A DNA stretch of 64,000 nucleotides, taken from Caloramator sp. E03. Lineage in GTDB: Bacteria > Bacillota > Clostridia > Clostridiales > Caloramatoraceae. Location: the NCBI RefSeq assembly GCF_006016075.1, contig NZ_CP040093.1, positions 1,963,501-2,027,500 on the forward strand, read 5' to 3'. Within the stretch, counting starts at the first letter, position 1; every line of letters starts with the position of its first letter. This document shows, piece after piece, positions 47,209 through 63,518 of the stretch. Under the pieces are notes generated by a model that saw only the letters and a list, made by a program, of their open reading frames with translations, searched no databases and had not been told where the DNA came from. A program made the position numbers and the translations under genes.

Positions 47209-48204
47209 ATGAAAAAAATTAAAAAATTATTAAGCATTTTTGTTATTTTAATTATGACAGTTATTGTTTTTTCAGGATGTGGCCAGAAAGAAGCTCAACA
47301 GAATAATAATACTTCTAATAATAATGAAGCAAAAAAAATAAAAATAGCTGTTGTTTTAAAGGCGTTAAACAGTGATTACTGGAAAATAGTACAAGCAGGT
47401 GCTATGGATGCAGCAAAGCAACTTGGAGTTGATGTTGAAGTTCTAGGTCCTAATGCAGAAACAGATATTGCAGGTCAAACATCGATAATGGAAGATCAGA
47501 TAGTTAAAAAGGTTTCAGCTCTTGTAGTTGCTCCATCACAGCCAAGTGCAGCTATAGCTACATTTGATAAGGCTGCAGAAGCTAATATTCCAGTAATATT
47601 AATAGATACAGATGCTAAATGGGACAAGAAATGTTCATTTGTAGGGACAGGGAACTATGCAGGTGGTGAAGTTGGTGGAAAGTTTATTGCAAGTAAATTA
47701 CAAAAGGGAGACAAAGTTGTAATTATTAGAGGAGCTTTAGGTGATACTACGCATGATGAACGTGTAAATGGTGCCAAAAAGGCTATGGAAGATGCTGGCC
47801 TTCAAATCGTAGCAGTACAGCCAGCAAACAGCGATAGAAATATGGGTATGTCAGTAATGGAAAACTTACTCCAGACATATCCAGATGTTAAAGCTGTATT
47901 CTGCTCAAATGATGAAATGGCACTTGGTGCACAAAGAGCAATTATGCAGGCAGGAAAAAAGGGAATTATAACAGTTGGTTTCGATGGATCACCAGATGCA
48001 TTAAAGTCAATAAAAGCAGGAGAGCTTACAGGTTCAGTAGCTCAGAGCCCATATAATATAGGTAAGTTTGGTGTTGAAGCAGCAGTAAAAGTTGTAAAAG
48101 GAGAGAAGATTGATACAAGGATTGATACAGGAACATCTATGATTACTGCAGAAAATGTTGATCAAGCACAGGCCGATCTTGATAAAATTTTAGGTAAAAA
48201 ATAA
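47209..48204 (+). CDS. Sugar-binding lipoprotein of an ABC importer, possibly for inositol
   Basis: A 331-residue type I periplasmic-binding-protein lipoprotein. The signal peptide ends at the lipobox VFSGC (Cys about 24), followed by a Gln/Asn-rich linker to about residue 41. The ribose/inositol-type fold begins KIKIAVVLKALNSDYW. The segments GKFIASKLQKGDKVVII, CSNDEMALGAQRAI and GFDGSPDALKSIKAG are typical of RbsB/IbpA-class proteins. The downstream iol genes make a cyclitol a plausible ligand, but specificity is not readable directly. ATG follows GAGGGGG. A strong hairpin follows the stop. Confidence 0.88.
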   Translation: MKKIKKLLSIFVILIMTVIVFSGCGQKEAQQNNNTSNNNEAKKIKIAVVLKALNSDYWKIVQAGAMDAAKQLGVDVEVLGPNAETDIAGQTSIMEDQIVKKVSALVVAPSQPSAAIATFDKAAEANIPVILIDTDAKWDKKCSFVGTGNYAGGEVGGKFIASKLQKGDKVVIIRGALGDTTHDERVNGAKKAMEDAGLQIVAVQPANSDRNMGMSVMENLLQTYPDVKAVFCSNDEMALGAQRAIMQAGKKGIITVGFDGSPDALKSIKAGELTGSVAQSPYNIGKFGVEAAVKVVKGEKIDTRIDTGTSMITAENVDQAQADLDKILGKK

Positions 48205-48229
48205 GAAAAAATAAGTCTATATATTAATT

Positions 48230-48280
48230 TTGTGATTGAAGTTGAATCTTACATTAAAAAAGATTCAGCTTCAGTCACAA
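48230..48280 (+). other. 21-bp intercistronic stem-loop after the binding-protein gene
   Basis: 48230-48250 pairs with 48260-48280 over 21 bp (two G-U pairs), with a 9-nt loop; the core is GAATCTT/AAGATTC. No T-run follows, so it is likely a 3'-end stabiliser or partial attenuator that raises binding-protein expression over the downstream ATPase and permease. Confidence 0.7.
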
Positions 48281-48304
48281 TATAAAGATGAGGTGACAAA
48301 AAGA

Positions 48305-49798
48305 ATGAAGCCATTTTTAGAACTAAAAGGTATCTCTAAGGTATTTCCTGGTGTTAGAGCACTTAACAATGTTGATTTTGATATATTTCCTGGTGAAGTC
48401 CATGGATTGGTAGGGGAGAATGGAGCAGGGAAGTCTACTCTTATAAAAATATTAACTGGAGCCTATAAAAATGATGCTGGGAAAATATTTATTGAAGGTA
48501 GAGAAGTCATAATCAATGGTCCTAGAGATGCTATGGAATATGGTATAACAGCAATATATCAGGAACTCAATATTATAAAAGGTCTTACGGTTGCAGAAAA
48601 TGTATTTTTGGGAAGAGAAATAAAACAAAACGGTAATAAGGGCCTCCTTGATATAAAGGAAATGAGAAGAAAATCTTATGAACTTTTAAAAGAACTTGGA
48701 CAAGATATCGATACTAAACAAGATGTGGCTTCTCTTGGTATAGGACAACAACAGATGGTTGAAATTGCTAAAGCATTAAGTATAAAGACAAAGCTATTAA
48801 TAATGGATGAGCCAACATCAAGTCTTACAGGAAGAGAGGTTAAAGAACTTTTAAGAACGATTAGGGAGTTAAAAAGTAAAGGAATTGCGGTTATTTATAT
48901 ATCGCATAGACTCGAAGAAGTCATGGAGATATGTGACAGAGTTACTGTAATGAGAGATGGTATGAAGATTACAACTCTACCAATAGAACAAGTTTCTGTT
49001 GAACAATTGATTAAGCTTATGGTAGGTAGAAGCTTAGAACAACAATTCCCAAAGATAAAGGTAAAGATAGGTGAAGAGGCTCTTAGAGTTGAAAATTTGA
49101 CAAGAAAAGGAATATTTAAGGATGTAAGTTTTAATGTTAGAAAAGGTGAAATAGTAGGAATAGCTGGACTTGTTGGAGCAGGAAGGACTGAAGTTGCAAG
49201 GGCAATTTTTGGAGCGGATGAGATAGATTCAGGTGAAATTTACATTGAAAATAAAAAAGTTAATATAAAATCTCCAAGAGATGCAATGAATTTTGGCATA
49301 GCATTTTTAACAGAGGATAGAAAGGGACAGGGATTAATTTTAGATAATACTATAGATTTTAATACGCATATTGCATCATACGATAAAACATCAAAAGGGA
49401 TGCTACTAAATTTAAAGTATCTTAAAGAAATCACACGTGAGAATATCAAAAAATTAAATATTAATCCACCGATTGAAAATTTTGTAACAAGGCAGTTAAG
49501 TGGTGGAAATCAACAGAAGGTAGTAATTGCAAAATGGCTTAATACAAAAGCAAAGATATACATTGTTGATGAGCCAACAAGAGGTATTGATGTTGGTGCA
49601 AAAGTTGAGGTTTACAATATTCTAAATCAACTTATACAAGAGGGGGCTGCAGTAATTATGATTTCTTCAGAATTACCAGAAATACTTGGTATGAGTGATA
49701 GAATATATGTAATGCATGAAGGGAGAATTACTGCAGAAATAGATAGGGCCCACGCTACTCAGGAAAATATAATGCTTGCAGCGACAGGAGGTAATTAA
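48305..49798 (+). CDS. Sugar ABC importer ATPase (double domain), possibly for inositol
   Basis: A 497-residue RbsA/MglA-class ATPase. Domain 1 has Walker A GENGAGKST, Q-loop YQELNIIKGLTVAEN, signature SLGIGQQQMVEIAKALS and Walker B LLIMDEP. Domain 2 has GLVGAGRTEVARAIF, signature LSGGNQQKVVIAKWL and IVDEPTRGIDVGAK. ATG 48305 is chosen because GAGGTGA lies 8 nt upstream. The frame is open further 5' but through the stem-loop. It forms an importer with the neighbouring binding protein and single permease. Confidence 0.92.
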   Translation: MKPFLELKGISKVFPGVRALNNVDFDIFPGEVHGLVGENGAGKSTLIKILTGAYKNDAGKIFIEGREVIINGPRDAMEYGITAIYQELNIIKGLTVAENVFLGREIKQNGNKGLLDIKEMRRKSYELLKELGQDIDTKQDVASLGIGQQQMVEIAKALSIKTKLLIMDEPTSSLTGREVKELLRTIRELKSKGIAVIYISHRLEEVMEICDRVTVMRDGMKITTLPIEQVSVEQLIKLMVGRSLEQQFPKIKVKIGEEALRVENLTRKGIFKDVSFNVRKGEIVGIAGLVGAGRTEVARAIFGADEIDSGEIYIENKKVNIKSPRDAMNFGIAFLTEDRKGQGLILDNTIDFNTHIASYDKTSKGMLLNLKYLKEITRENIKKLNINPPIENFVTRQLSGGNQQKVVIAKWLNTKAKIYIVDEPTRGIDVGAKVEVYNILNQLIQEGAAVIMISSELPEILGMSDRIYVMHEGRITAEIDRAHATQENIMLAATGGN

Positions 49799-50818
49799 AT
49801 GAGTAATATAGGATTTGAAAATATAAAAGCTGAAAGATTTCAATCTGTTGATAAAAAATCAATTAAAAATTATATTTCAAAATTTGGATCATTACTTGGA
49901 CTTTTGATTTTGTGCATTATATTAACATTTGCATCCTCTCATTTCTTGACACTTAAAAACATAATGAATATTGCAAGGCAATCTGCTATTAACAGTTTAA
50001 TTTCAGTTGGTATGCTTTTGACTATATTAACTGCAGGTATAGATCTTTCGGTTGGTTCAGTACTTGCTTTATCTACTTGTATTATGGGTGTATCAGTTGT
50101 TAAATGGGGTATTAATCCTATTTTTGCAATGTTTATATGTCTTATAGTAGGAGCTTTTTTGGGATTTTTAAATGGTGTTATGCTTACAAAGATGAGATTA
50201 CCTCATCCTTTTATATCAACACTTGGTATGAAAAATATTGCAAGAGGGCTTGCTCTGATTATCACAGCAGCTTCACCAATATCTGGTTTCCCAAAGGCAA
50301 TACAATATATAGGTGCAGGCTATATAGGTCCAGTACCAGTGAGTTTTATTCTTGTTGTTGTTATTTTTGTAATATTTTCAATATTCTTAAACAGGACAGC
50401 TCAAGGAAGATACATATATGCAGTTGGTGGTAATCTAGAGGCCTCAAAGCTTTCTGGTATAAATGTAGATAAAACTCTTATACTTGTTTATACAATCTGT
50501 GGATTTATGGCTGCTGTTGGAGGACTTGTATTGACTGGAAGAGTTAATGCAGCATTTCCACTTGCAGGTCTTGATTACGATCTTGATGCAATTGCAGCAT
50601 GTATAATTGGTGGTGCTTCTTTTATGGGAGGCTCAGGAACTGTATGGGGTACATTGATAGGCGCTATGATTATGGCTGTTTTAAGAAATGGTTTAAACCT
50701 TCTTGGAGTATCAGCTGATCTTCAGACTGTTGCAATAGGTGTTGTTATAATTGGTGCTGTTTATGTAGATGTATTAAGACGTCAAGCAGAAAAGAAGGCT
50801 AAGACACAGGCTCTATAA
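49799..50818 (+). CDS. Sugar ABC importer permease, possibly for inositol
   Basis: A 339-residue RbsC-type permease expected to act as a homodimer, since only one permease gene is present. Hallmarks: TAGIDLSVGSVLALST (about 79-94), LGMKNIARGLALI, GRYIYAVGGNLEASKLSGINV and DAIAACIIGGASFMGGSGTV. GGAGG in the end of the ATPase gene places ATG 49799. A hairpin with a T-rich tail follows at 50831. Confidence 0.92.
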   Translation: MSNIGFENIKAERFQSVDKKSIKNYISKFGSLLGLLILCIILTFASSHFLTLKNIMNIARQSAINSLISVGMLLTILTAGIDLSVGSVLALSTCIMGVSVVKWGINPIFAMFICLIVGAFLGFLNGVMLTKMRLPHPFISTLGMKNIARGLALIITAASPISGFPKAIQYIGAGYIGPVPVSFILVVVIFVIFSIFLNRTAQGRYIYAVGGNLEASKLSGINVDKTLILVYTICGFMAAVGGLVLTGRVNAAFPLAGLDYDLDAIAACIIGGASFMGGSGTVWGTLIGAMIMAVLRNGLNLLGVSADLQTVAIGVVIIGAVYVDVLRRQAEKKAKTQAL

Positions 50819-50830
50819 TTAACATTTTAT

Positions 50831-50875
50831 CTGACCGTGATATTTTATACGGTCGCGGTCAGAGTTCTTTTCTAA
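50831..50875 (+). terminator. Likely terminator after the importer permease
   Basis: CTGACCG (50831-50837) pairs with CGGTCAG (50856-50862), with an alternative GACCGT/ACGGTC pairing, followed by AGTTCTTTTCT. It separates the importer operon from the LacI-type gene. Confidence 0.6.
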
Positions 50876-50958
50876 AATATATTGCAAATATTTAAATTTT
50901 TAATGAAAATGATATAATATAAATTAATATTTAACAAAAAAATTAGGTTGGGATAAAG

Positions 50959-51942
50959 ATGGCAGTTACAATTAAAGATATTGCAAAAATATTAAATGTA
51001 TCATTTGCAACAGTTTCAAAAGCATTAAGTGACAGGGATGATATAAGTGAAGAGATGAAAGCAAAAGTAAGGAAGGTTGCAGAAGAGTTAAATTATAAAC
51101 CTAACTATATTGCAAGAGGGCTTGTAAAAAATGAAACAAAAACAATTGGACTTATTATTCCAGATATTACAAATCCTTTTTATTCTGAGATTGCAATGGC
51201 AATAGAAGAAACGGTTAATAAAGAAGGCTATAGTGTTTTCCTATGTAATTCCAATTGGAAAAACAGCAGCGAAAATGATTATATAAACCTATTAATAAGT
51301 AAAAAAGTTGATGGAATAATAATTGCACCTATTGGTGAAGGAAATTTGAGGTTAGAAAGTGTAGATATTCCAATTGTAATTGTTGGAACAAAAAAAGAGT
51401 ATAATAATCAAAACTATGTTGTTATTGATGATGAAAAGGGAGGATATTTAGCTGTAAAACATTTAATAAAACAAAACTGTAAGAAGATAATGTTTATTGG
51501 AGGAAAAGAAAATGTTCAGTCTAACAAACAAAGATTAGAAGGATATAAAAGGGCGTTAATTGAAAATAATTTTGAAATTGATGAAAAGTATATAAGAAAT
51601 GGTGATTTTAAACAGGAAAGTGGATACCTTATAATGAAAAAAGTCTTTAATGAAGGGATAATACCAGATGGTGTTTTTGCAGGCAATGACTTACTTGCTC
51701 TTGGAGTTATGCGTGCAGCTCTAGAGTTTGGTTTAAGGATACCAGATGAGATAAAAATTGTAGGTTTTGATGATATTCCTTTTGCAAGATTGCCTGAAAT
51801 ATCACTAACTACAATACTACAGCCTAAATATAAGATGGGACAGTATGCAGCAAGTATGCTTTTATCTAAAATAAAGAATCCAGAGATTAAGTATGAAAAT
51901 ATTATATTAAAACCTAAGTTAATAAAAAGAAATACCGGATAA
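50959..51942 (+). CDS. LacI-family repressor of the inositol-type operon
   Basis: A 327-residue LacI/GalR regulator. The N-terminal HTH is TIKDIAKILNVSFATVSKAL (about 4-23), with the hinge helix NYKPNYIARGL. The effector domain starts KTIGLIIPDITNPFYSEIA and includes GVFAGNDLLALGVMRAA and GFDDIPFARL. It sits between the importer and the catabolic operon. A perfect LacI-type palindrome lies at the catabolic promoter 140 nt downstream of its stop. The inducer is probably an inositol-pathway compound, by context only. Confidence 0.92.
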   Translation: MAVTIKDIAKILNVSFATVSKALSDRDDISEEMKAKVRKVAEELNYKPNYIARGLVKNETKTIGLIIPDITNPFYSEIAMAIEETVNKEGYSVFLCNSNWKNSSENDYINLLISKKVDGIIIAPIGEGNLRLESVDIPIVIVGTKKEYNNQNYVVIDDEKGGYLAVKHLIKQNCKKIMFIGGKENVQSNKQRLEGYKRALIENNFEIDEKYIRNGDFKQESGYLIMKKVFNEGIIPDGVFAGNDLLALGVMRAALEFGLRIPDEIKIVGFDDIPFARLPEISLTTILQPKYKMGQYAASMLLSKIKNPEIKYENIILKPKLIKRNTG

Positions 51943-52162: not shown

Positions 52163-53389
52163 ATGGATTTAAAGTTAAGGGCTTTAAAAGTACATAAAGA
52201 TAATCAAGGGAAAATAGCTCTTCATTGTAAAGTTCCAGTAAATAGTAAAGATGATATGACTTTGGCTTATACCCCTGGTGTTGCAGAACCGTGCCTTGAA
52301 ATTAAAGAAAATTATGAAAAAATATACGATTATACTTCAAAAGGAAATTGGGTTGCAGTAGTTACAAATGGAACGGCAGTTCTTGGACTTGGTGATATAG
52401 GAGCAGGAGCAGGGCTACCAGTAATGGAAGGTAAAGCTGTTTTGTTTAAATCATTTGCAGGAATCGATGCTTTTCCAATATGTATTGATACAAAGGATGT
52501 AAATAAAATAGTCGAGACTGTAAAACTTATGGAACCTACCTTTGGAGGGATAAATTTAGAGGATATAAAAGCTCCAGAATGCTTTGAAATAGAAGATAAG
52601 TTGAAAGAGATTTGTAACATACCAGTATTCCATGATGATCAGCATGGTACAGCGGTTGTAACTCTTGCAGCACTTATAAATGCACTTAAAATTACAGGTA
52701 AAAGGTTTGAGGATTTAAAAGTAGTAATAAATGGAGCAGGTGCGGCTGGGACATCTATAACAAAGCTCTTAATAAAATCTGGAGTAAAGGATATTCTTAT
52801 ATGCGATAGAGCTGGAATAATATCAAAGAATAGAAGTAGGCTTGATTTTAATAAAAAGAAACTTGCAGAAATAACTAATAAAGATAACGTAACAGGTACT
52901 TTAAGTGATGCAATTAAAGGTGCAGATGTATTTATAGGGGTATCTGTTGCAAATGTCTTAACTACTGATATGGTAAAAACAATGAGTAAAGATGCCATAG
53001 TTTTTGCGCTGGCAAATCCGGTACCAGAAATTTATCCAGATGAGGCAAAAAAAGGAGGTGCAAGAATCATTGGGACAGGCCGTTCAGATTTTCCCAATCA
53101 AATCAACAATGTACTTGCATTTCCAGGAATATTCCGAGGAGCACTTGACGTAAGAGCTTCCCAGATAAATGAGGAAATGAAAATTGCGGCAGCTTATGCG
53201 ATTGCAAGTGTAGTTGAAGATAGTGAATTAAATGAAGACTATATTCTTCCAAATGCATTTGATTTGAGAATTGCACCAAAAGTTGCAGAGGCTGTTGCAA
53301 AAGCTGCTATAGATACAAAAGTAGCAAGAGCAGAAGGTATAACCCCAGAGTGGGTAAGAAACCATACTATTGAATTATTAAAAAAATAA
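52163..53389 (+). CDS. NAD(P)-dependent malic enzyme
   Basis: A 408-residue malic enzyme of the short bacterial type, decarboxylating L-malate to pyruvate. Visible features are Tyr36 in [10 protein letters not shown], Lys91 in [13 protein letters not shown], the metal-binding FHDDQHGTA (about 155-163), and the nucleotide-binding GAGAAGTSI. It is the first gene of the LacI-controlled operon that also encodes iolB, D, E and G. That position is unusual and suggests that malate is an intermediate of the pathway rather than this being a general anaplerotic gene. ATG follows AGGAGG. It lies 17 nt before the GAPDH homologue. Confidence 0.93.
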
Positions 53390-53406
53390 TTTAGGAGGTT
53401 GATAAA

Positions 53407-54429
53407 ATGGTTAAAGTTGGAGTTGTAGGTTATGGAGTTATAGGTCAAAGGCTTGCAGATGGTGTTGCACTTCAAAAGGACATGGAGCTTGTTGGTGTTG
53501 CTGATGTATCACCAACCCTTGCAATAAGAGCACTTAAAGAAAAAGGAATGCCATACAACTTTTATCTTGCAATGCCAGAGAACATTAAAATGTTTGAGGA
53601 ACTTGGTATTCCTGTATCAGGAACTCTGGAAGATTTGGTTAAAAAGACTGATATTATACTTGATGCCACAAGTGCAGGTGTTGGAGCAAAAAATAAGGAA
53701 CTTTATGCAAAGTACAACAGAAAGGCAATATTCCAGGGAGGAGAGAAAAACTCTGTTGCTGATGTATTCTTCCATGGATATGCAAACTATGAAAAAGGAC
53801 TTGGAAAACAGTTCTTAAAACTTACATCCTGCAACACAACAGGGCTTATAAGATCAGTCGACTGCCTTGACCGTGAGTTTGGAATAGAAAAAGTTGCAAT
53901 AACTATAATAAGGCGTGTAGCTGATCCTGGTGATTATCACAGAGGACTTACAAATGCTCTTCAGATAGACAAGGCCCCAAGCCATCAGGCAGTAGATTTA
54001 ATGACTATAATGCCTCATATAAATGCAACAGGAATACTTGTTCATACACCTGTTACTCATGGACATATAATAACAGTAGTTGCAACACCAAAGAAAAAGA
54101 TATCAAAGGAAGAGGCAATTGAGTGCTTCAAGAAACATCCAAGAATAAGAGTAGTTAGAATTGCGGACGGGTTCCTTGGAAATGCTTCACTCTTTAGATA
54201 TGCAAGAGACCTTGGAAATCCAAGAGGAGATATGTATGAAATTGCACTTTGGGAAGAATCAGTTGTAAATTCAGGAGATGACATAATGTATGCAATAAAC
54301 ATACCTCAGGAAGCTGTAACAATTCCTGAAACAATAGACGGAATTAGAGCTGCTTTAATGATGCAGACAGATAGGATTTCAGCAACTACAGAAACAAATA
54401 AATATTTGGGGATGGGAAAATGGATGTAA
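53407..54429 (+). CDS. Archaeal-type (type II) GAPDH homologue; candidate malate-semialdehyde dehydrogenase
   Basis: A 340-residue phosphorylating dehydrogenase resembling archaeal GAPDH, not the bacterial GapA type. It shows the NAD-binding GYGVIGQR (9-16), catalytic Cys142 in SCNTTGL (141-147), RRVADP (169-174) and THGH (217-220). Archaeal enzymes normally have PSHHGPDV; here it reads PSHQAVDL (191-198), a change near the substrate phosphate site. The substrate is therefore probably not glyceraldehyde-3-phosphate. From the operon I infer D-malate semialdehyde oxidation to a malyl phosphate with NADH formation. It overlaps the PGK-like gene by 10 nt, indicating coupled synthesis. A glycolytic role cannot be excluded. 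Confidence 0.85.
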   Translation: MVKVGVVGYGVIGQRLADGVALQKDMELVGVADVSPTLAIRALKEKGMPYNFYLAMPENIKMFEELGIPVSGTLEDLVKKTDIILDATSAGVGAKNKELYAKYNRKAIFQGGEKNSVADVFFHGYANYEKGLGKQFLKLTSCNTTGLIRSVDCLDREFGIEKVAITIIRRVADPGDYHRGLTNALQIDKAPSHQAVDLMTIMPHINATGILVHTPVTHGHIITVVATPKKKISKEEAIECFKKHPRIRVVRIADGFLGNASLFRYARDLGNPRGDMYEIALWEESVVNSGDDIMYAINIPQEAVTIPETIDGIRAALMMQTDRISATTETNKYLGMGKWM

Positions 54430-55682
54430 AAATAACAAAAATTAGATCGATGGATGAGTTTAACTACGAAGGAAAGACAGTAATTCTAAGAATAGATGTA
54501 AATTCACCTATTGACCCTGTGACAAAAAAGATTGTGAATGAAAATAGAATAAAAAAGAGTATTCCAACAATAAAATATCTTCTGGAGAAAAAAGCAAAGG
54601 TTGCAATAATTGCACATCAGGGTGATACACTTGATTACCATAACTTAATTCCAATGGAAGAACATGCTCAAAAACTTTCAAGCCTTTTGGGGATAGAAAT
54701 AAAATATATTGATGACGTATGTGGTATTGCAGCAAGAGAGGCAGTTAAAAATTTAAAGCCAGGAGAAGCAGTATTTTTGGGGAACTTAAGATATCTTTGC
54801 GAAGAGATTTCAACATTTGAGGATGTAGTAAAATTAGAGCCTTATGAGATGCTTAATACCTATCTTGTAAGAAGTCTTGCACCTCTTGCGGACTATTATG
54901 TTAATGATGCATTTGCAGCTGCACACAGAAATGCACCTTCAATGGTGGCATTTCAAGAAATTCTCCCATCAGCTGGAGGAATACTTTTAAAGAAGGAAAT
55001 TGATGCTTTATGCAAGGTTATGGAAAATCCTGATAGACCAAATGTATTTGTTTTAGGAGGTCTTAAAATATCAGATGCATTTGGAATGATGAAGCAGGTT
55101 TTGGAGAATGGAAGTGCAGATAAAATACTTGCTTGTGGTGTTACAGGGCATATAATGCTTATGGCAAAAGGATATAATCTTGGAGAGAAAAATGAAAAGT
55201 TTATAAAGGATAGGTCCCTTGATGTATTTTTAAAGCCTGCAAAGGAATATATTGAAAACTTTGGAGAAAAAATAATTTATCCTGTTGACCTTGCCTTTGA
55301 AAAAGATGGTGAAAGATTTGAAATAAATATTGAAAGTCTTCCTGTCAATGAACTTTTCCTTGATATTGGGCAAAAGACAATTGAAATATTCAAAAAGGAA
55401 ATAGCATCAGCAGGAACTATATTTGTAAACGGTCCGGCAGGAGTATATGAGAATAAACTTTTTGAAAATGGAACAAGAGAGATTTGGAAGGCTATTGCAA
55501 ATGCTAAAGGATATTCGGTAATAGGCGGGGGAGATACAGTAAGTGCGGCTCAAAAATTCATAGATACTTCAAATATTAATTATGTATGTACAGCAGGAGG
55601 AGCGATGGTAAGGTTCTTATCTGGAGTTAAAATGCCTCTTATTGAAGCAATGAAAAAAGCATACAGCAGAGAATATAAATAA
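54420..55682 (+). CDS. Archaeal-type PGK homologue with altered substrate site; candidate malyl-phosphate kinase
   Basis: A 420-residue phosphoglycerate-kinase family protein, closest in style to archaeal PGKs (LRIDVNSPIDP, DAFAAAHRNAPSM, GGGDTVSAAQKF). Substrate residues equivalent to Arg38, Arg122 and Arg170 of canonical PGK remain (R43, R124, R170). The HxGRP motif reads HQGDT (66-70), so the Arg65 that grips the 3-phosphate is Asp69. This favours an acyl phosphate without a distal phosphate. I infer that it transfers phosphate from malyl phosphate to ADP. ATG 54420 lies inside the preceding gene. A loose inverted repeat (55692-55753) precedes the next gene. Confidence 0.84.
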   Translation: MDVKITKIRSMDEFNYEGKTVILRIDVNSPIDPVTKKIVNENRIKKSIPTIKYLLEKKAKVAIIAHQGDTLDYHNLIPMEEHAQKLSSLLGIEIKYIDDVCGIAAREAVKNLKPGEAVFLGNLRYLCEEISTFEDVVKLEPYEMLNTYLVRSLAPLADYYVNDAFAAAHRNAPSMVAFQEILPSAGGILLKKEIDALCKVMENPDRPNVFVLGGLKISDAFGMMKQVLENGSADKILACGVTGHIMLMAKGYNLGEKNEKFIKDRSLDVFLKPAKEYIENFGEKIIYPVDLAFEKDGERFEINIESLPVNELFLDIGQKTIEIFKKEIASAGTIFVNGPAGVYENKLFENGTREIWKAIANAKGYSVIGGGDTVSAAQKFIDTSNINYVCTAGGAMVRFLSGVKMPLIEAMKKAYSREYK

Positions 55683-55767
55683 ATCTTATTTTGGTATATG
55701 CTGCAGGCACTCTTTTATGCATGATTATAAATTTAAGCAGTATGTACCATAAATATGGAGGTAGAAA

Positions 55768-56607
55768 ATGTTAAGCAGTGAAAAAATAAAGGAAATTGAA
55801 AAGTTTGCTTTAAAAATTAGAATTGAAACCATAAAAGCAATAGGGAACCTTGGATTCGGTCATATTGGAGGAGCAATGTCAATTGCGGATACTATTGCTG
55901 TATTATATGATGCTGTAATGAAATACGATCCTAAAAATCCAAAGTGGGAGGATAGAGATTATCTTATATGCTCAAAAGGACATGCAGGCCCTACAATATA
56001 CTCTGCATTAGCACTAAAAGGATTTTTCCCAATTGAGGAGCTTATGACTTTAAATAAGCCAGGCACTCACCTTCCAAGCCACTGTGATAGAAACCTTACA
56101 ACAGGAATAGATATGACAACAGGCTCCCTTGGACAGGGCTCATCACTTGCAGTTGGGGTAGCACTTGGAAATAGATATAGTGGCAGAAAAAATACAACTT
56201 ATTTAATACTTGGCGATGGAGAAATGCAGGAAGGTCAGGTCTGGGAAGCAGTACTTTATGCTGCACATCAGAAATTAAGCAATCTTGTAGTATTTGTTGA
56301 TTACAATAAAAAACAGCTTGATGGATATACTGCAGATATAAATGATCTTGGAGATTTAAAATCAAAATTCGAAGCTTTCAAATGGTTTACACAGGAAGTT
56401 GACGGCCATAATGTTTCAGAAATTTATGAAGCAGTTGAAAATGCAAAAAAGCAGAATGAAAAGCCGTCTGCAATAATACTGCATACAGTAAAAGGGAAAG
56501 GATGCAGTTTTGCTGAAAATGAACTATATAACCATCATATGACAGTAAGCAGGCAGCAGATGGAAGAAGCACTCAATGTTCTTTTAAATGAACTTGACAG
56601 GAGGTGA
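55768..56607 (+). CDS. Split transketolase, N-terminal (thiamine-diphosphate binding) subunit
   Basis: A 279-residue protein corresponding to the N-terminal third of transketolase. The ThDP motif runs from LGDGEMQEGQVWEA (about 148-161) to VDYNKKQLDG. Conserved active-site His residues are in GFGHIGG, SKGHAGP, LPSHCD and the C-terminal ELYNHH. Variation from the usual GHPGG and LxGHP motifs is visible (HIGGAM, PSHCDR). With its partner it should move a ketol (C2) unit between sugars. Embedded between a PGK homologue and iolB, its donor may be the IolB product. GGAGG precedes ATG 55768. Confidence 0.92.
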   Translation: MLSSEKIKEIEKFALKIRIETIKAIGNLGFGHIGGAMSIADTIAVLYDAVMKYDPKNPKWEDRDYLICSKGHAGPTIYSALALKGFFPIEELMTLNKPGTHLPSHCDRNLTTGIDMTTGSLGQGSSLAVGVALGNRYSGRKNTTYLILGDGEMQEGQVWEAVLYAAHQKLSNLVVFVDYNKKQLDGYTADINDLGDLKSKFEAFKWFTQEVDGHNVSEIYEAVENAKKQNEKPSAIILHTVKGKGCSFAENELYNHHMTVSRQQMEEALNVLLNELDRR

Positions 56608-56611
56608 TAGC

Positions 56612-57583
56612 ATGAGTGTAGTATTGGCAAATAAAAGAGTTAAAGAAGATAAGGAAATGAGAAATGTATACTGCGAAACGCTTATGGAGCTTTCAGAGGA
56701 AAATAAAAAAATTGTAGTACTTGATGCAGATCTTATGAATTCAATGGGAATGACAAAATATGCGAAAAAATACCCTGGAAGGACATTTAATGTTGGTGTA
56801 CAGGAAGCTAATATGGTTGGTATTGCAGCGGGACTTTCAGCAACAGGGCTTATACCTTATGCACACAGCTTTGGGCCTTTTGCAACAAGAAGATGTTTTG
56901 ACCAGCTTTTCTTATCCTGTGGATATGCAAAATTAAACGTAAGAATTGTAGGAAGCGACCCTGGGGTTACTGCTGCATACAACGGAGGAACTCATATGCC
57001 TTTTGAGGATATGGGTATACTTAGAAATATTCCTAACATTACAATTTTGGAACCTGTTGATTCTGTAATGCTAAAAGATATTATAAAACAAACTTCAAAT
57101 ATGTACGGCCTGTTTTATATAAGGCTTTTAAGGAAAAATGCAGTAAAAATTTATGAGGACAGCTCAACATTTGAAATAGGAAAAGGAATTACTTTAAAGG
57201 ATGGAAGAGACGTTACAATAATTGCAACAGGAATTATGGTTGATGATGCTTTAAAAGCTTCCGAGGAGCTTGAAAAAATGGGTATATCAGCAAGGGTTGT
57301 AAACATATTTACATTAAAACCAATAGATAGGGAACTTATAATAAAATGCGCAAAGGAAACAGGTGCAATAGTTACTGTTGAAAACCACAGTGTAATTAAC
57401 GGACTTTATTCTGCAGTCTCTGAGGTTATAGCAGGAAGTACTTTAGTCCCAGTTGATAAGGTAGGAGTTATGGATGAATTCGGAGAAGTTGGACCTGTTG
57501 ATTATTTAAAGTTAAGGTTTAAGCTTACTCCTGAATCAATTGTTGAAAAAGTTAAAAAAGTGCTTGAAAGAAAGAACTCATAA
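56612..57583 (+). CDS. Split transketolase, C-terminal (pyrimidine-binding) subunit
   Basis: A 323-residue partner subunit containing the pyrimidine-binding and C-terminal domains. The cofactor-activating Glu lies in NVGVQEANM (about residue 65). The stretch aligned with E. coli H461-D469-H473 reads SDPGVTAAYNGGTH: the His becomes Asp (116), the Asp becomes Asn (124) and the final His is kept (128). These alter the site that recognises phosphate and the sugar hydroxyl, suggesting an unusual donor. ATG 56612 lies 4 nt after the N-subunit stop, with GGAGGTGAT overlapping that stop. A slightly longer upstream frame is less likely. Confidence 0.91.
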   Translation: MSVVLANKRVKEDKEMRNVYCETLMELSEENKKIVVLDADLMNSMGMTKYAKKYPGRTFNVGVQEANMVGIAAGLSATGLIPYAHSFGPFATRRCFDQLFLSCGYAKLNVRIVGSDPGVTAAYNGGTHMPFEDMGILRNIPNITILEPVDSVMLKDIIKQTSNMYGLFYIRLLRKNAVKIYEDSSTFEIGKGITLKDGRDVTIIATGIMVDDALKASEELEKMGISARVVNIFTLKPIDRELIIKCAKETGAIVTVENHSVINGLYSAVSEVIAGSTLVPVDKVGVMDEFGEVGPVDYLKLRFKLTPESIVEKVKKVLERKNS

Positions 57584-57596
57584 AGAGGTGTTTTAG

Positions 57597-58403
57597 ATGA
57601 TTAAAATTTGTCAAGATAAACCCTTTGAATATGGATATAATGCTATAACCGTAATGGGAGAAAAAGAACATGATACAATGATGGATTTTGGGATTTTAAG
57701 GCTAAAAAAAGAACATAAGGAAATATTTTTTAGTGAAAATAAGGAAAGAGCCTTTCTTCTGATAAAGGGGGAAGTAGCACTTGAGTGGAACGGATGCAAA
57801 AGAATAATAAAAAGAGAATCATGTTTTGACTATAACCCTTGGGTACTTCATGTCCCAAAGTGTACTGAAGTTAAAATTACTGGAATATCTGATGATTCTG
57901 AGATTAATATAACAAGTACAACCAATGATAGAAATTTTGATGCAAGACTTTATTCACCAGATGAATGTGCAAGCGAAGAGAGAGGAAAAGGGACGCTTAA
58001 TGAATGTTCGACAAGAATAGTAAGAACAGTATTTGATTATTCAAATGCAGACTATTCAAATCTTGTACTTGGAGAAGTTATAGATTTTCCAGGGAAATGG
58101 TCAAGCTATCCTCCACATCATCATCCTCAGCCTGAAATATATTTTTATAAATTCTATCCTGAAAACGGATATGGATTTTCACAGCTTGGTGATAACGTAG
58201 AAAAGGTAAAAAACAACTACACTATAAAGATTCTTGATGATGTAAGTCATCCTCAAGTTACTGCACCTGGATATGCAATGTATTATATATGGGTTATAAG
58301 GCATATTGACGGAAATCCGTACAAGAGTCCTCAGTATCCAATATTTGAAAGTGAGCATCTTTGGGTAAATGATAAAAATGCAAAGATTTGGCCGGAAAAA
58401 TAA
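57597..58403 (+). CDS. iolB: 5-deoxy-glucuronate isomerase
   Basis: A 268-residue bicupin of the KduI/IolB family that converts 5-deoxy-D-glucuronate to 2-deoxy-5-keto-D-gluconate in myo-inositol catabolism. The metal-site motif KWSSYPPHHHPQPEIYFYKF (about 168-187) and the C-terminal PQYPIFESEHLWV are diagnostic. It starts 13 nt after the transketolase and precedes iolD. Its product is the expected substrate of the kinase IolC in known pathways, but no iolC is present in this operon. Confidence 0.95.
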   Translation: MIKICQDKPFEYGYNAITVMGEKEHDTMMDFGILRLKKEHKEIFFSENKERAFLLIKGEVALEWNGCKRIIKRESCFDYNPWVLHVPKCTEVKITGISDDSEINITSTTNDRNFDARLYSPDECASEERGKGTLNECSTRIVRTVFDYSNADYSNLVLGEVIDFPGKWSSYPPHHHPQPEIYFYKFYPENGYGFSQLGDNVEKVKNNYTIKILDDVSHPQVTAPGYAMYYIWVIRHIDGNPYKSPQYPIFESEHLWVNDKNAKIWPEK

Positions 58404-58421
58404 TTAAAAGGGGTGAGAAAA

Positions 58422-60284
58422 TTGAAGACGATAAGACTTACAATGGGTCAGGCACTTTTAAAGTTTCTTGATAATCAGTATGTAGAATTTGATGGAGTTC
58501 AAAAGAAATTCGTAAAGGGAATTTTCACAATTTTCGGTCATGGATGTGTTGTCGGATTTGGCGAAGCTCTTGAGAGCTATAAAGGAGATATTGTTGTTTA
58601 TCAAGGGAAAAATGAACAGGGAATGGCACATGCTGCTATAGGATATGCAAAGCAGAAAAACAGAAGAGAAATAATAGCATGTACATCTTCAATTGGACCT
58701 GGCGCATTAAACATGGTTACTGCTGCAGGAACTGCAACGGTAAACAGAATACCGCTTTTATTATTTCCCGGCGATACATTTGCTTGTAGACAGCCGGATC
58801 CAGTTCTTCAGCAAGTTGAGCATCCTCTTAGTTATTCAATTACTGCAAATGATGCATTTAAGGCCGTATCAAGGTACTGGGACAGGATTGAAAGACCAGA
58901 GCAGCTAATGAGTGCTATGATTAATGCAATGAGAGTATTAACTGATCCTGCAGATACAGGTGCTGTAACTATATGCATCCCTCAAGATGTTCAGGGAGAG
59001 GCTTATGACTATCCTGTTGAGTTCTTTGAAAAAAGAATTCACATTATATCAAGAAGAGAACCATCAAAAGCTGAAATTGAAAGAGCAGTAGCAAAAATTA
59101 AAAATAAGAAAAAGCCATTAATAATATGTGGTGGAGGCGTTGTTTATTCTGAAGCTGCAGATGTACTTGTAAAGTTTGCTGAAAGGTTTAATATACCATT
59201 TGGTGAAACACAGGCTGGTAAAGGTGCTGTATCATGGAAACACAAATTAAATCTTGGAGGAATCGGGGTTACCGGAGGACTTGCAGCAAACAGGATAGCA
59301 ATGGATGCAGACCTTGTAATTGCAGTTGGAAGCAGGCTTTCAGATTTCACAACCTCATCAAAATGGCTCTTTAAAAATCCTGATGTTGAAGTTGTTTCAA
59401 TAAATGTGAACTCCTTTGATGCATACAAAATGAATGCATGTTCTATAATTTCAGATGCAAAGGCAGGACTTGAAGCACTTTATAAAGCACTTGATGAGGT
59501 AGGATATATGTCTTCGTATAAAGAAGAAATAGAAAAAGCAAAGAAAGAGTGGGAAGAAGAAGTAGACAGGCTATTTAAGGCTGATAGTGAAAATGGTCTT
59601 TCACAGACAAGAGTTCTTGGGGAACTTGACAAGCTAATTGATAAGAATGATATAATTGTCGGTTCATCAGGAAGCCTTCCGGGAGATCTACAAAGGGTAT
59701 GGAGACCTGAAAAACCCAAGACATATCACATGGAATACGGTTTTTCATGTATGGGTTATGAAGTATGCGCTGCACTTGGTGTTAAAATTGCAGAACCTGA
59801 TAAAGAAGTATACTCTATGGTTGGAGACGGAAGCTATTTGATGCTCCATTCAGAGCTTGTAACAAGCATTCAGGAAGGTAAAAAGATTAATGTACTTCTT
59901 TTTGACAACTCAGGTTTTGGATGTATAGAAAACCTGCAGAACTCTCAAGGAATACCAACTTTTGCAACACAGTTTAAGTTCCGTGATGAAAAAACTGGAA
60001 GATTAACTGGGCAGTCAATACCAATAAGCTATGCTGAAGTAGCAAAAGGATACGGATGTAAAACATATACCGTTACAAATATTGAAGAATTAAGAGAAGC
60101 AATAAAATGTGCAAGGAAAGATAATGTTTCAACACTAATTGATATAAAGGTTGCTCCAAAGACTATGACTGGAGGATATGAGTCATGGTGGCGTGTAGGT
60201 GTACCTGAGGTATCAGAAAACCAATCCGTAAGAGAAGCATACCAAAAAATGTCCGAAGAAATTAAAAAGACAAAGAAATTTTAA
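58422..60284 (+). CDS. iolD: 3D-(3,5/4)-trihydroxycyclohexane-1,2-dione hydrolase
   Basis: A 620-residue thiamine-diphosphate enzyme that opens the inositol-derived diketone ring to 5-deoxy-glucuronate. The start [19 protein letters not shown], the Glu in [27 protein letters not shown] and the ThDP motif [18 protein letters not shown] match IolD of Bacillus subtilis closely. I prefer TTG 58422, 6 nt after GGGGTGA, over the in-frame GTG 58413 inside that site. The ring-opening step commits the operon to inositol-type substrates. Confidence 0.95.
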
Positions 60285-60299
60285 AATGGGGGATATATT

Positions 60300-61196
60300 A
60301 TGTTTGATAAAAGTAAAGTAAAGCTTGGAATTGCTCCAATAGCATGGACAAATGATGACATGCCAGAGCTTGGAAGCCAAAATACATTTGAGCAGTGCAT
60401 AAGCGAGATGGCTCTTGCAGGATTCATAGGAAGCGAAGTTGGAAATAAGTATCCAAAAGATACAAAAGTTCTTAAAAAAGCTTTAAATTTAAGGGGAATA
60501 TCTATTGCAAGTGCATGGTTCAGTGCTTTTTTAACAACAAAACCTTTTGAAGAGACAAAAGAAGCTTTTATAAAGCATAGGGATTTTCTACATGAAATGG
60601 GTGCAAAGGTTATAGTTGTTGCAGAGCAGGGCCACAGCATACAGGGAATGATGGATGTCCCAGTGTTTGATAAAAAACCTATTTTTACTGAAGAAGAATG
60701 GGAAAAACTTGCAAGAGGCCTTGAAGAATTAGGAAAGCTTGCACTTGAGAAAGATATGAAGATAGTATATCACCACCACATGGGAACAGGAGTTCAGACA
60801 ACAGAAGAAATTGAAAAGCTGATGAGCATGACTGATGAAGACCTTGTATATCTATTGTTTGATACAGGACATTTAACTTTCTCGGGAGAAAATCCAGAAG
60901 AAATACTTAAAAAGTATGTTAAAAGAATTAAACATGTTCATCTAAAAGATATAAGAGAAGGTGTATTAAAAAAGGTAAAAGAAGAAAAATTGAGTTTTCT
61001 TCAGGCAGTAAAAGAGGGTGTATTTACTGTTCCGGGAGATGGAATGATTAATTTTGAACCATTATTTAAAATACTTGAAGAAAATAATTATGAAGGTTGG
61101 TTTATAGTTGAAGCAGAACAAGACCCAGCAAAGGCAAATCCTCTTGAATATGCTATAAAGGCAAGAAAATATATTAGAGAAAAAACAGGACTTTAG
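60300..61196 (+). CDS. iolE: Inosose (2-keto-myo-inositol) dehydratase
   Basis: A 298-residue xylose-isomerase-like TIM-barrel enzyme dehydrating 2-keto-myo-inositol to the trihydroxycyclohexane-dione. [18 protein letters not shown] (about 8-25) is a strong IolE signature. Probable metal ligands lie in HHHMGTG, DTGHLTF, HVHLKD and the C-terminal EAEQDP. ATG 60300 follows GGGGG. It sits between iolD and iolG, completing the front half of the pathway. Confidence 0.95.
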
Positions 61197-61206
61197 GAGG
61201 GTAATT

Positions 61207-62217
61207 ATGGAAAAGAAATTAAAAGTTGGTATTATTGGTGCAGGAAGAATAGGCAAAATTCATGCTGAAAATATTGTAAAAAAGTTTGGATATGTTGAAG
61301 TTAAAGCTATTGCTGATGTATATGCGGATAAAATTAAAGATTTTGCGCAAAGTCTTGGTATTAAGAATGTATATGATGATTATAAAAAAATAATAGATGA
61401 TCCTGAAATAGATGCAGTTGTTATATGTTCATCAACAAATACTCACTCACAAATAAGTATAGAAGCTGCAAATGCTGGGAAACACATATTTTGTGAAAAA
61501 CCAATTGACTATGACCTTAGTAGAATAAATGCTGTTCTTGAAGCAGTTGAAAAGGCAGGAATAAAGTATCAGGTAGGATTTAACAGAAGATTTGATCATA
61601 ACTTTAAAAAGGTTCGTGAACTTGTTAAAGATGGTAAAATTGGGGATGTTCATATTGTAAAAGTAACATCAAGAGATCCAGCACCACCTCCTATTGAATA
61701 TGTTAAGGTATCTGGAGGAATGTTCCTTGATATGACAATTCATGATTTTGATATGGTAAGATATCTTACAGGAAGTGAAGTAGTTGAAGTTTATACAAAT
61801 GCAGCAGTTCTTGTTGATCCAGCAATTGGAGAAGCAGGGGATGTTGATACGGCATTAATAAGTTTAAAGTTCAAAAATGGTGCAATAGGTATTATAGATA
61901 ACAGCAGAAGAGCTGCTTATGGATATGACCAGAGAGTTGAAGTATTTGGTTCAAAAGGTAAAGCTGAAGCTATGAATGACACACCAACAACAGTTGTTTT
62001 AAGTACTGAAGATGCTGTTACATCAGATAAGCCAAAGTATTTCTTCCTTGAAAGATATATGGACTCCTTTGCTGATGAAATGAAAGAATTCTTTGATGCA
62101 ATATTAAATGATACTCCAACACCTGTATCGGCAATTGATGGGTTAAAGCCAGTTTTAATTGGACTTGCTGCGAAAAAATCCTTTGATGAAGGGAAACCAA
62201 TTTCTATTGAAGAATAA
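61207..62217 (+). CDS. iolG: myo-Inositol 2-dehydrogenase
   Basis: A 336-residue Gfo/Idh/MocA dehydrogenase oxidising myo-inositol to 2-keto-myo-inositol with NAD. It has the Rossmann motif GAGRIGKIH (about 10-18), the catalytic Lys in CEKPIDYD (about 96-103), FNRRFDHNF and the catalytic His/Asp region DMTIHDFDMVRY (about 176-187). Related enzymes use scyllo- or D-chiro-inositol, so the isomer is not certain. A terminator-like hairpin follows, before the LarA-family gene. Confidence 0.92.
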   Translation: MEKKLKVGIIGAGRIGKIHAENIVKKFGYVEVKAIADVYADKIKDFAQSLGIKNVYDDYKKIIDDPEIDAVVICSSTNTHSQISIEAANAGKHIFCEKPIDYDLSRINAVLEAVEKAGIKYQVGFNRRFDHNFKKVRELVKDGKIGDVHIVKVTSRDPAPPPIEYVKVSGGMFLDMTIHDFDMVRYLTGSEVVEVYTNAAVLVDPAIGEAGDVDTALISLKFKNGAIGIIDNSRRAAYGYDQRVEVFGSKGKAEAMNDTPTTVVLSTEDAVTSDKPKYFFLERYMDSFADEMKEFFDAILNDTPTPVSAIDGLKPVLIGLAAKKSFDEGKPISIEE

Positions 62218-62224
62218 TCAAAAG

Positions 62225-62257
62225 TGGATGGCAGATTTAGTCTGCTGTCCATTTTTC
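62225..62257 (+). terminator. Rho-independent terminator between iolG and the LarA-family gene
   Basis: TGGATGGCAGA pairs with TCTGCTGTCCA (two G-U pairs) around a 5-nt loop, followed by TTTTTC. It should reduce read-through, so the LarA-type gene is probably expressed at a lower level. No separate promoter is evident in the 56-nt gap. Confidence 0.75.
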
Positions 62258-62273
62258 ATAAGGAGGAGATAAA

Positions 62274-63518
62274 ATGGAATTTAATCTTGGTTTTGCAAAA
62301 ACTACGATGAAGGTTAATGTTGATGAAAAAAATCTTTTGGATGTTCTTCATGCAAATGAAGTTGAGATCGGATTAACAGGTACTGATGAGGTGAAAAGGT
62401 CGATAGAAAATCCGATAAATTCAAAAAGGCTTTGCGAAATTATAAAAAAAGGTGAAAAGGTTGTAATAATCACAAGCGATATTACGAGACCTATGCCAAG
62501 TAAGGTTGTTCTTCCTTTTGTTATTGAAGAGCTTAAAAGGGGAGGAGTAGAGGATGATGATATTACGATTGTGTTTGCCCTTGGAAGCCATAGAAAGCAT
62601 ACAGAAGAGGAGAAAAAATATCTTGTTGGAGAGGAAATATACAAAAGAATAAAATGTGTTGATAGCGATGCAAATGACTATGTTCATTTTGGATATACAA
62701 AAAACAATACTCCAATAAATATTTTTAGGATAGTTGCAGAAGCAGATAGAAGGATATGTCTTGGCAATATAGAATATCACTATTTTGCAGGATATAGTGG
62801 GGGAGCTAAGGCTATAATGCCTGGTGTATCTACAAGAGAGGCGATTCAGGCAAATCACAGCAGGATGGTTGATGAGAATGCTTATGCAGGAAATATTGAG
62901 ACAAATCCTGTAAGACAGGATATAGAAGAAACAGTAAAATTTGTACCTATTGACTTTATAGTAAATGTTGTTCTTGATGAAAAAAAGAATATTATAAAAT
63001 GTGTATCAGGACATTATATTGATGCTCACAGAGAAGGATGCCGTTTTCTTGATAGCTTCTATAAAATTAAAATAAAGGAAAAGGCTGATATTGTAATTAC
63101 ATCTGCAGGTGGATTCCCAAAGGATATTAATCTTTATCAGGCACAAAAAGCTCTTGATAATGCAAAACATGCTGTTAAAAGGAATGGTATAATTATACTT
63201 GTAGCATCATGCAGGGAAGGACTTGGGGAACATACATTTGAGGAATGGCTTTTAAATGCAAAAAAAAGTGAGGAGCTTATTGAAAGAGTTAAAAAGGATT
63301 TTAAGCTTGGCGGACATAAAGCAGCAGCGATTGCAATGGTACTTCAAAATGCAAAAGTATTTCTTGTTTCAGAACTTGAGCCTGATTTTGTAAGAAGTAT
63401 ATTCCTTGAACCTTATTTTGATGTACAGTCTGCTTATGAAAATGCATTAAAGGAAATTGGAAATGATGCAAAAGTATTGATAATTCCACATGGAGGATCA
63501 ATTTTGCCATGTTTGTAA
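62274..63518 (+). CDS. LarA-family nickel-pincer racemase/epimerase, candidate malate racemase
   Basis: A 414-residue LarA homologue. The catalytic and nickel-pincer residues fit lactate racemase spacing exactly: Asp69 with TRP (SDITRPMP), His106 (LGSHRKH), His169 and Lys179 in EYHYFAGYSGGAK, and His195 (ANHSRM). The family racemises or epimerises 2-hydroxyacids using the NPN cofactor made by LarBCE, which is not encoded here. Known members include malate racemases. In this operon D-malate is a predicted intermediate and malic enzyme needs L-malate, so malate racemase is my inference. Lactate or another 2-hydroxyacid remains possible. ATG follows AGGAGG, 17 nt after the terminator. Confidence 0.86.
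   Translation: MEFNLGFAKTTMKVNVDEKNLLDVLHANEVEIGLTGTDEVKRSIENPINSKRLCEIIKKGEKVVIITSDITRPMPSKVVLPFVIEELKRGGVEDDDITIVFALGSHRKHTEEEKKYLVGEEIYKRIKCVDSDANDYVHFGYTKNNTPINIFRIVAEADRRICLGNIEYHYFAGYSGGAKAIMPGVSTREAIQANHSRMVDENAYAGNIETNPVRQDIEETVKFVPIDFIVNVVLDEKKNIIKCVSGHYIDAHREGCRFLDSFYKIKIKEKADIVITSAGGFPKDINLYQAQKALDNAKHAVKRNGIIILVASCREGLGEHTFEEWLLNAKKSEELIERVKKDFKLGGHKAAAIAMVLQNAKVFLVSELEPDFVRSIFLEPYFDVQSAYENALKEIGNDAKVLIIPHGGSILPCL

Follow-up and report, generated by a model that had tools for sequence, protein, structure and literature searches.

A ten-gene operon and the replacement of iolC

The 64,000-nucleotide stretch of Caloramator sp. E03 analysed here (the window, positions 1,963,501 to 2,027,500 of contig NZ_CP040093.1) is part of a single-contig genome of 2,984,770 bases. 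Our subject is an operon of ten genes within it, all on the + strand at 52163-63518, and the route of inositol breakdown that this operon may encode. The genes are, in order, malic enzyme, a type II glyceraldehyde-3-phosphate dehydrogenase (GAPDH) homologue (GAP2), a phosphoglycerate kinase (PGK) homologue (PGKx), the N-terminal and C-terminal halves of a split transketolase (TKN and TKC), an IolB-like isomerase, IolD, IolE, IolG and the racemase LarA (Table 1). Intergenic gaps run from 9 to 85 bases, and short overlaps occur in the GAPDH/PGK pair and between the two transketolase halves. All ten gene calls of the original prediction, which had been made from the letters alone, were confirmed, as was its claim that both borders of the cluster lie inside the window: a transporter and a LacI regulator stand upstream (47209-51942), and msrA begins downstream at 63643.

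The original prediction had also read IolG, IolE, IolD and IolB as the set that makes 2-deoxy-5-keto-D-gluconate (DKG). Three of these assignments stand, with NCBIfam scores well over the family cut-offs for IolD (987 bits against 715), IolE (443 against 290) and IolG (496 against 355). The fourth protein falls under its cut-off; IolB is its nearest family, and it is not a clean member. GAP2 reaches 416 bits on the type II GAPDH profile (NCBIfam cut-off 185).

No IolC over cut-off was found, either at the locus or among the candidates scored in the rest of the genome. There are ten PfkB-family matches in the genome, and none of the eight that were scanned (two short partials were not) exceeds the IolC cut-off, the best having 210 bits against 300; all eight fit another kinase family better than IolC. 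A search of the genome with the IolC family at an E value of 1e-85, in which five of the ten candidates were scored, also gave no match, so we rejected the possibility of an iolC elsewhere. An IolJ would be left with no substrate if IolC is lacking. The best match to IolA (MMSDH) in the genome has 42.7 bits against a cut-off of 448.5, which would fit a route that forms no malonate semialdehyde.

Elsewhere in the genome are an operon of type I gap, pgk and tpi, another two split transketolases, and DXS. Because it has these separate copies of its own, the GAPDH, PGK and transketolase genes of the operon are additional, and we count it in favour of the proposed route that they are dedicated paralogues beside ordinary ones. 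The idea that GAP2 and PGKx replace the glycolytic pair of the cell was rejected, given the gap-pgk-tpi operon here and a type I GAPDH domain in 17 of 20 other genomes tested. We also dropped the split transketolase as a remarkable trait, as the other two transketolases of the genome are likewise split.

The original prediction had proposed a search for these genes in genomes that have iolBDEG and lack iolC, and we ran one on a sample of 398 genomes of the phylum, scoring at most five iolC candidates per genome. IolD was over cut-off in 18 genomes (a 19th match, at 339 bits, was under cut-off and was not counted), iolC was found in 15 and GAP2 in nine. Wherever iolC is present, in 15 genomes, it is no more than 3 kb from iolD and GAP2 is missing. 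The remaining three iolD genomes, which lack iolC, are that of the window, G051 (Carboxydocella, locus L066) and G236 (a Thermincola metagenome-assembled genome, or MAG; locus L044), and GAP2-PGKx-TK adjoins iolD in all three. A repeat search of G051 and G236 that scored every candidate found no IolC over cut-off. Thus iolC and the module partition the 18 iolD genomes completely (Fisher p = 0.0012, uncorrected for relatedness).

We then used an alignment of nine GAP2 proteins to scan named genomes, which gave 445 relatives, and took the best 80 loci. IolD is present in 41 of these 80, and the 41 loci sit in 40 genomes. They contain PGKx in 40 cases, TKC (at 45% identity or more) in 27, LarA in 32, malic enzyme in 15, and either LarA or malic enzyme in 34. 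IolC over cut-off is missing in 38 of the 40 genomes with all candidates scored. The arrangement of iolD plus module recurs in Bacillota (including Clostridium magnum, Fonticella, Desulfosporosinus and Lucifera), Spirochaetota (including Sphaerochaeta and Treponema), Chloroflexota (including Flexilinea and Leptolinea) and Thermotogota (a Thermotogae MAG). Because the same set recurs in this way, it is not a chance grouping. An Atribacteria locus (L063) has transketolase, GAP2, PGKx and malic enzyme with no iolD in view. The gene content, its conservation, the lack of IolC and IolA over cut-off and the replacement of iolC are direct observations on the genomes, as are the residue changes described in the next section, for which the key positions align gap-free.

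A published survey of iol clusters, in the part available to us, treats iolB, iolC, iolD and iolE as the core and puts a missing fourth gene down to unfinished sequence, faulty assembly or frameshifts (PMC9430895). Fusions of IolC to DUF2090 have been described from GapMind work as another aldolase route (PMC9007349, seen in part); that route also needs IolC.

Homologues of all ten operon proteins, at 92-98% identity, are found in Caloramator quimbayensis (L042), the closest named relative at the locus. Homologues of the substrate-binding protein (66-77%) stand upstream of the module in L046, L047, L066 and L070. A family of large unassigned proteins is encoded close to the transporter in six related loci (L046, L047, L050, L066, L070 and L075). 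AT-rich inverted repeats precede the operon, with no clear operator among them. Clustering of the unassigned neighbour proteins mainly returned conserved synteny in one clostridial group.

Table 1. Genes of the operon and its upstream neighbours, with positions in the window.
Feature	Position	Strand	Basis
AraC-family C-terminal domain protein, 779 aa, possible transporter regulator	44576..46915	+	AraC-type matches under cut-off; role suggested by position
Sugar ABC transporter substrate-binding protein, likely inositol uptake	47209..48204	+	RbsB-like under cut-off; substrate suggested by position
Sugar ABC transporter ATPase	48236..49798	+	RbsA-like under cut-off
Sugar ABC transporter permease	49799..50818	+	RbsC-like under cut-off
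LacI-family regulator	50959..51942	+	Family match
Malic enzyme (predicted L-malate to pyruvate + CO2)	52163..53389	+	Family match
GAP2, type II GAPDH homologue (predicted phosphorylating malate-semialdehyde dehydrogenase)	53407..54429	+	Family match, alignments
PGKx, PGK homologue (predicted ATP-forming malyl-phosphate kinase)	54420..55682	+	Pfam PGK, residues
TKN, transketolase N-terminal half	55768..56607	+	Family match
TKC, transketolase C-terminal half	56588..57583	+	Asp124 at human His416 position
IolB-like isomerase (predicted 5-deoxy-glucuronate to DKG)	57597..58403	+	Nearest family IolB, under cut-off
IolD, trihydroxycyclohexanedione hydrolase	58413..60284	+	NCBIfam
IolE, inosose dehydratase	60300..61196	+	NCBIfam
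IolG, inositol 2-dehydrogenase	61207..62217	+	NCBIfam
LarAH6-family nickel-dependent malate racemase	62274..63518	+	NCBIfam; best solved relative Mar2, 6d6z

Substrate sites and the proposed route

We put at about 0.8 the probability that the operon is explained by a route from inositol via D-malate semialdehyde that runs through the transketolase, GAP2 and PGKx. This is the route of the original prediction, and most of the tests, all of them on sequence, run in its favour. IolG, IolE, IolD and the IolB-like protein would convert myo-inositol to DKG. The split transketolase would then turn DKG into D-malate semialdehyde and pass a ketol unit to an aldose phosphate, most likely glyceraldehyde-3-phosphate, which would give xylulose-5-phosphate. 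GAP2 would convert D-malate semialdehyde to malyl phosphate, from which PGKx would make D-malate and ATP; LarA would turn D-malate into L-malate, and malic enzyme would yield pyruvate and CO2. When DKG is read from C6, its C3/C4 arrangement is D-threo, as in fructose. The product should be (R)-malate, that is D-malate, because DKG minus the ketol unit leaves an aldehyde that would be oxidised to that configuration. We infer every substrate beyond 5-deoxy-glucuronate, the ketol acceptor and the direction of flux.

We numbered the residues of TKC by alignment to human transketolase, in which Arg318, Ser345, His416 and Arg474 presumably bind the substrate phosphate. The His416 position is Asp in all 27 iolD-linked TKCs, unlike the other two TKCs of the genome, which keep His. 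The TKC of the window keeps the equivalents of Arg318, Ser345 and Arg474; across the 27, Arg474 is always kept, the Arg318 position is Arg in 20 and Lys in seven, and the Ser345 position is Ser in 24 and Ala in three. The Asp-type TKCs form one clade with support of 100/97, covering 60 of the 72 rows (67 distinct) of a tree from which two distant E1-type rows had been dropped beforehand. No TKC is in view at 14 of the 41 iolD loci, and 12 of their 14 genomes have an Asp-type TKC elsewhere. A motif of this type, NGGTHMP, searched as a DNA pattern, occurs in five of the 398 phylum genomes, including all three with iolD plus GAP2.

On the Pfam PGK profile PGKx reaches 366 bits and the other PGK of the genome 569. 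We compared its residues in 76 sequences (that of the window plus those of 75 loci, out of 80, where the match was sufficiently long), aligned with the PGK of the genome itself. In PGK the 3-phosphate is bound by Arg65, Arg122 and Arg170, while His62 contacts the bridging oxygen and Asp23 and Asn25 contact the 2-oxygen (PMC7729029; the same residues are given in PMC3900376; both seen in part). None of the 76 PGKx sequences has Arg at the Arg65 position, which is Asp in 65 (including the window), Ser in nine, Asn in one and Gly in one. The equivalents of Asp23, Asn25, Arg38, His62, Arg122 and Arg170 are kept in all 76. Thus, of the three arginines of a glycolytic PGK, the window protein has lost Arg65 and kept Arg122 and Arg170. 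The glycerate-like end of the site is kept and the phosphate end weakened, as expected if the substrate carries a carboxylate in place of the phosphate.

GAP2 was aligned in 90 rows, 87 of them distinct, and compared with four solved archaeal enzymes. The catalytic Cys142 and His220 are kept in all 90 rows. The His-His pair of the archaeal PSHH motif is not, since its second His, present in the four archaeal enzymes, is Gln194 in all 90; we take this second His to sit at the phosphate site. Position 33 is Asp in 89 of the 90 rows and Lys in the four archaeal enzymes, and we assume that Asp33 would favour NAD.

The exit from D-malate is where different genes appear to converge. The claim of a LarA-type racemase held up, with 591 bits for the window protein against the NCBIfam LarAH6 malate-racemase cut-off of 500, and larC, which serves maturation of the nickel-pincer nucleotide (NPN) cofactor of LarA, is present in the genome (of the maturation genes, larC alone was searched). 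Seven of the 41 iolD loci have neither LarA nor malic enzyme. In two of these, L070 (Clostridium ganghwense) and L107 (Thermotogae), the operon itself includes a member of the TIGR02089 tartrate dehydrogenase family (521 and 545 bits, cut-off 470), a family that we take to include decarboxylating D-malate dehydrogenase. Such a D-malate dehydrogenase would replace the racemase and malic enzyme in one step, and this convergence of different genes on D-malate is the strongest hint at the identity of the intermediate.

A Thermoanaerobacterium thermosaccharolyticum strain has a GAP2 (P0028) 84% identical to that of the window, and Mar2 comes from the same species. We dropped the claim that Mar2 sits in such an operon there, as gene adjacency was not confirmed.

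The fate of the ketol unit bears on the energy balance. An ATP-dependent 6-phosphofructokinase gene lies no more than 70 bases after LarA in five loci (L046, L057 and L066 by family scan, L044 and L047 by similarity), and in L057 a class II fructose-bisphosphate aldolase comes next. A phosphofructokinase would be needed if the ketol unit returns through xylulose-5-phosphate to fructose-6-phosphate. In four Chloroflexota loci (L052:12553-13446, L056:6788-7684, L058:17069-17959 and L091:19460-19981) the module is followed by a fructokinase-like ROK kinase, called at 285 bits against a cut-off of 400 in L058 and by similarity in the other three; this kinase might phosphorylate the product of ketol transfer.

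The original prediction claimed a gain of one ATP, and this holds for the PGKx step but not for the net yield, because recycling of the C2 unit costs the ATP of phosphofructokinase. By our reckoning, three inositols would give 3 ATP at PGKx; the three xylulose-5-phosphates would be recycled to a net two triose phosphates for 2 ATP; these would give 4 ATP on the way to pyruvate; and conversion of five pyruvates to acetate would add 5 ATP. The total would be 10 ATP and 16 electron pairs per three inositols, against 9 ATP and 12 electron pairs for the classical route to acetate. The net advantage would then be about 1/3 ATP and 1.3 electron pairs per inositol, less than one would expect from the difference of two ATP at the kinase step itself.

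Points against the route, alternatives and wider use of the module

Several observations weigh against the proposed route or limit it. The IolB-like protein has 101 bits against the TIGR04378 cut-off of 205 (188 bits on Pfam KduI/IolB). Two of the 40 iolD-plus-GAP2 genomes do have IolC, one of them Clostridium ganghwense with two copies. The loss of Arg65 is common to the whole PGKx family, including members outside iol clusters, and the nearest solved PGK, the archaeal relative 2cun, has Lys at this position, so part of the shift in PGKx may be ancestry. The Lys219 position of PGKx is Ala in all 76 sequences, unlike classical PGK. The motif after His62 does not strictly follow the front end of the pathway: among 40 iolD-linked sequences, 37 have HQGD and three have HQGS, a form also seen in L026-L027 and in loci of Spirochaetota and Atribacteria; HQGG is the form of L028-L031 and L084. 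For the transketolase, the two misses among the 14 genomes whose iolD locus has no TKC in view are G450, which has no TKC match, and G451, which has the His type only, and NGGTHMP also occurs in two genomes without GAP2 (G316 and G350). Racemases from four spirochaete loci tested have 368-421 bits, under the cut-off of 500, with malate racemase still the best family. Of the seven loci with neither LarA nor malic enzyme, L054, L083 and L114 end early at contig or stretch ends, and L050 and L068 have no LarA, malic enzyme or TIGR02089-like gene within 21 kb. Finally, there is no IolD in view in 39 of the 80 loci, 18 of which have GAP2 and PGKx only, and the substrate range of these two enzymes may be wider than the inositol-derived acid.

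We considered whether the transketolase, GAPDH and PGK homologues simply act on ordinary sugar phosphates as extra glycolytic or pentose-phosphate capacity, with DKG degraded by a kinase and aldolase that were not recognised. In its favour, automated annotation places GAP2 in the type II GAPDH family with a score far above the cut-off, PGKx and TKC retain most of their substrate-site residues, and the genome has other PfkB kinases, while class II aldolases lay outside the genome search. We nevertheless regard this explanation as improbable: the normal gap-pgk-tpi operon is already present, the 18 iolD genomes have either iolC or the module but never both, Arg65 is lost throughout PGKx, and no role would be left for the malate racemase, the malic enzyme or the operon-borne gene of the tartrate dehydrogenase family. 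Less probable again is that the chemistry is as we propose and the ketol unit leaves by another exit, to a free aldehyde or ribose-5-phosphate, or through phosphoketolase to acetyl phosphate, with a different energy yield. The operon does not encode the acceptor, and the ROK kinases of Chloroflexota would suit such an exit, whereas the window TKC keeps three presumed phosphate-binding residues, and the phosphofructokinase genes after the module fit return through fructose-6-phosphate.

We give the lowest weight, as a very unlikely case, to a natural substrate that is another C4 acid semialdehyde, such as tartrate semialdehyde from 5-keto-gluconate, in an operon for inositol isomers or hexuronates. 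GAP2-PGKx-TK-LarA does stand beside IolN rather than IolD in L028 and L030, and malate racemases accept tartrate as well (PMC11770544, seen in part). Against this, IolD, IolE and IolG of the window are over cut-off within the same operon, and HQGD predominates in iolD-linked PGKx where L028-L030 have HQGG, although this split is partial given the three iolD loci with HQGS. On balance we keep the route from inositol through D-malate semialdehyde as the best explanation of the operon.

Related gene sets suggest a wider use of the module. L028:7682-14388 and L030:3867-12410 have transketolase, GAP2, PGKx (with HQGG) and LarA beside an IolN over cut-off, L030 also having IolO- and IolM-like genes under cut-off, and this is possibly a parallel route that takes 5-keto-gluconate through tartrate semialdehyde. 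In L026:5803-15341 and L027:4989-11591, GAP2-PGKx-LarA-malic enzyme follows an E1-E2-E3 set resembling pyruvate/acetoin dehydrogenase (E1 and E2 of L026 were scanned), with genes resembling molybdenum hydroxylases nearby in L026; these complexes possibly carry out an oxidative ketol cleavage onto lipoamide that yields the same aldehyde. In Lucifera butyrica (L053:673-6555), an IolN over cut-off and an IolM-like gene under cut-off lie upstream of an iolBDEG-TK-GAP2-PGKx-LarA operon, and two inositol routes may share this one cluster. Asp-type transketolases with NGGTHMP are found in L156 and L157 (the genomes G316 and G350), followed in L157 by an apparent zinc dehydrogenase, and we read this as a likely further use of the Asp-type enzyme. 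A group of clostridial MAGs has GAP2-PGKx in conserved synteny without iol genes (L060, L069, L072, L073, L074, L076, L080, L086, L090, L092, L095, L104, L115 and L117), and a type I GAPDH domain is present as well in 11 of these 14.

We lean towards a joint reading of these sets, with less confidence than we have in the route of the window itself. GAP2 and PGKx would be a module for substrate-level phosphorylation from C4 dicarboxylic semialdehydes, descended from glycolytic enzymes of the archaeal type and now spread among phyla, and its front ends would vary: IolBDEG with an Asp-type transketolase (malate semialdehyde), IolN/IolO with another transketolase (tartrate semialdehyde), or an E1-E2-E3 complex. 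Hundreds of bacterial genes called type II GAPDH would then be malate-semialdehyde dehydrogenases, and completing inositol breakdown would be one of the chief roles of nickel malate racemases. A protein search gave 5,248 GAP2 relatives among 7,997 candidates scored, and the source names among the 120 matches listed are glyceraldehyde-3-phosphate dehydrogenase, with one dihydrodipicolinate reductase. The current names of the gene set are likely misleading in at least four phyla.

Significance and comparison with known systems

If the route is correct, inositol catabolism has a second, ATP-yielding lower half, in which the energy-conserving step of glycolysis is copied onto a non-phosphorylated acid. 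The naming of a large protein family would be corrected, and nickel-dependent malate racemases would gain a physiological role, a point that their discoverers left open. The carriers include anaerobes and MAGs from gut, soil and sediment, and the predicted output of communities fed on inositol or phytate would shift from malonate semialdehyde products to pyruvate and more reducing power. Among the open-access PMC full-text matches listed, which would miss accounts outside that scope, no paper describes a transketolase inositol route, a malyl-phosphate step or a link between malate racemase and inositol. The parts seen of papers that name the classical iolBCDEG set (PMC5808187) and report iol gene expression in Megamonas (PMC12130570) contain no such transketolase route.

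The classical iol pathway (IolG-E-D-B-C-J-A) and the window are alike in the upper half to DKG, with IolG, IolE, IolD and the IolB-like protein. They differ in that the window has no IolC or IolA over cut-off, and the transketolase, GAP2, PGKx, malate racemase and malic enzyme would form its lower half.

The Thermotoga inositol pathway runs through IolG-IolM-IolN-IolO and likewise has no phosphorylation of DKG. Its IolN occurs with GAP2-PGKx in L028 and L030, and an IolO-like protein, under cut-off, in L030. None of the ten operon proteins of the window, to which the search in this genome was confined, is IolM, IolN or IolO, apart from a weak sub-cut-off match of IolE to IolO, and the window would use IolE-IolD-IolB in their place.

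For the racemase, the comparison is with the Mar2/LarAH6 enzymes, since the window protein is over the family cut-off and its nearest solved structure is Mar2 (6d6z). In the part seen, the in vivo roles of LarA-family enzymes are called an important remaining question, and growth on malate was suggested by the discoverers (PMC7583248); the context in the window offers another candidate role. The word inositol was not found in the parts seen of PMC7583248 or PMC11770544.

In an engineered form, E. coli transketolase acts on 5-keto-D-gluconate (the 2-hydroxy analogue of DKG) and yields tartaric semialdehyde, thus cutting the same bond (PMC12016104, seen in part). That system differs from the one proposed here in its engineered enzyme, its biosynthetic purpose and the lack of a GAPDH/PGK step.

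A parallel in chemistry is the sulfo-TK pathway, in which SqwGH transfers a ketol unit from a non-phosphorylated, anionic sulfosugar ketose to glyceraldehyde-3-phosphate (PMC11659671, seen in part), as we propose for the window. The C4 product of the sulfo-TK pathway is isomerised and cut again, whereas the C4 product in the window would be oxidised with a gain of ATP. By analogy, the logic of the proposed route would be a ketol transfer of the sulfo-TK kind followed by a GAPDH/PGK step copied onto an acid that carries a carboxylate for the phosphate.

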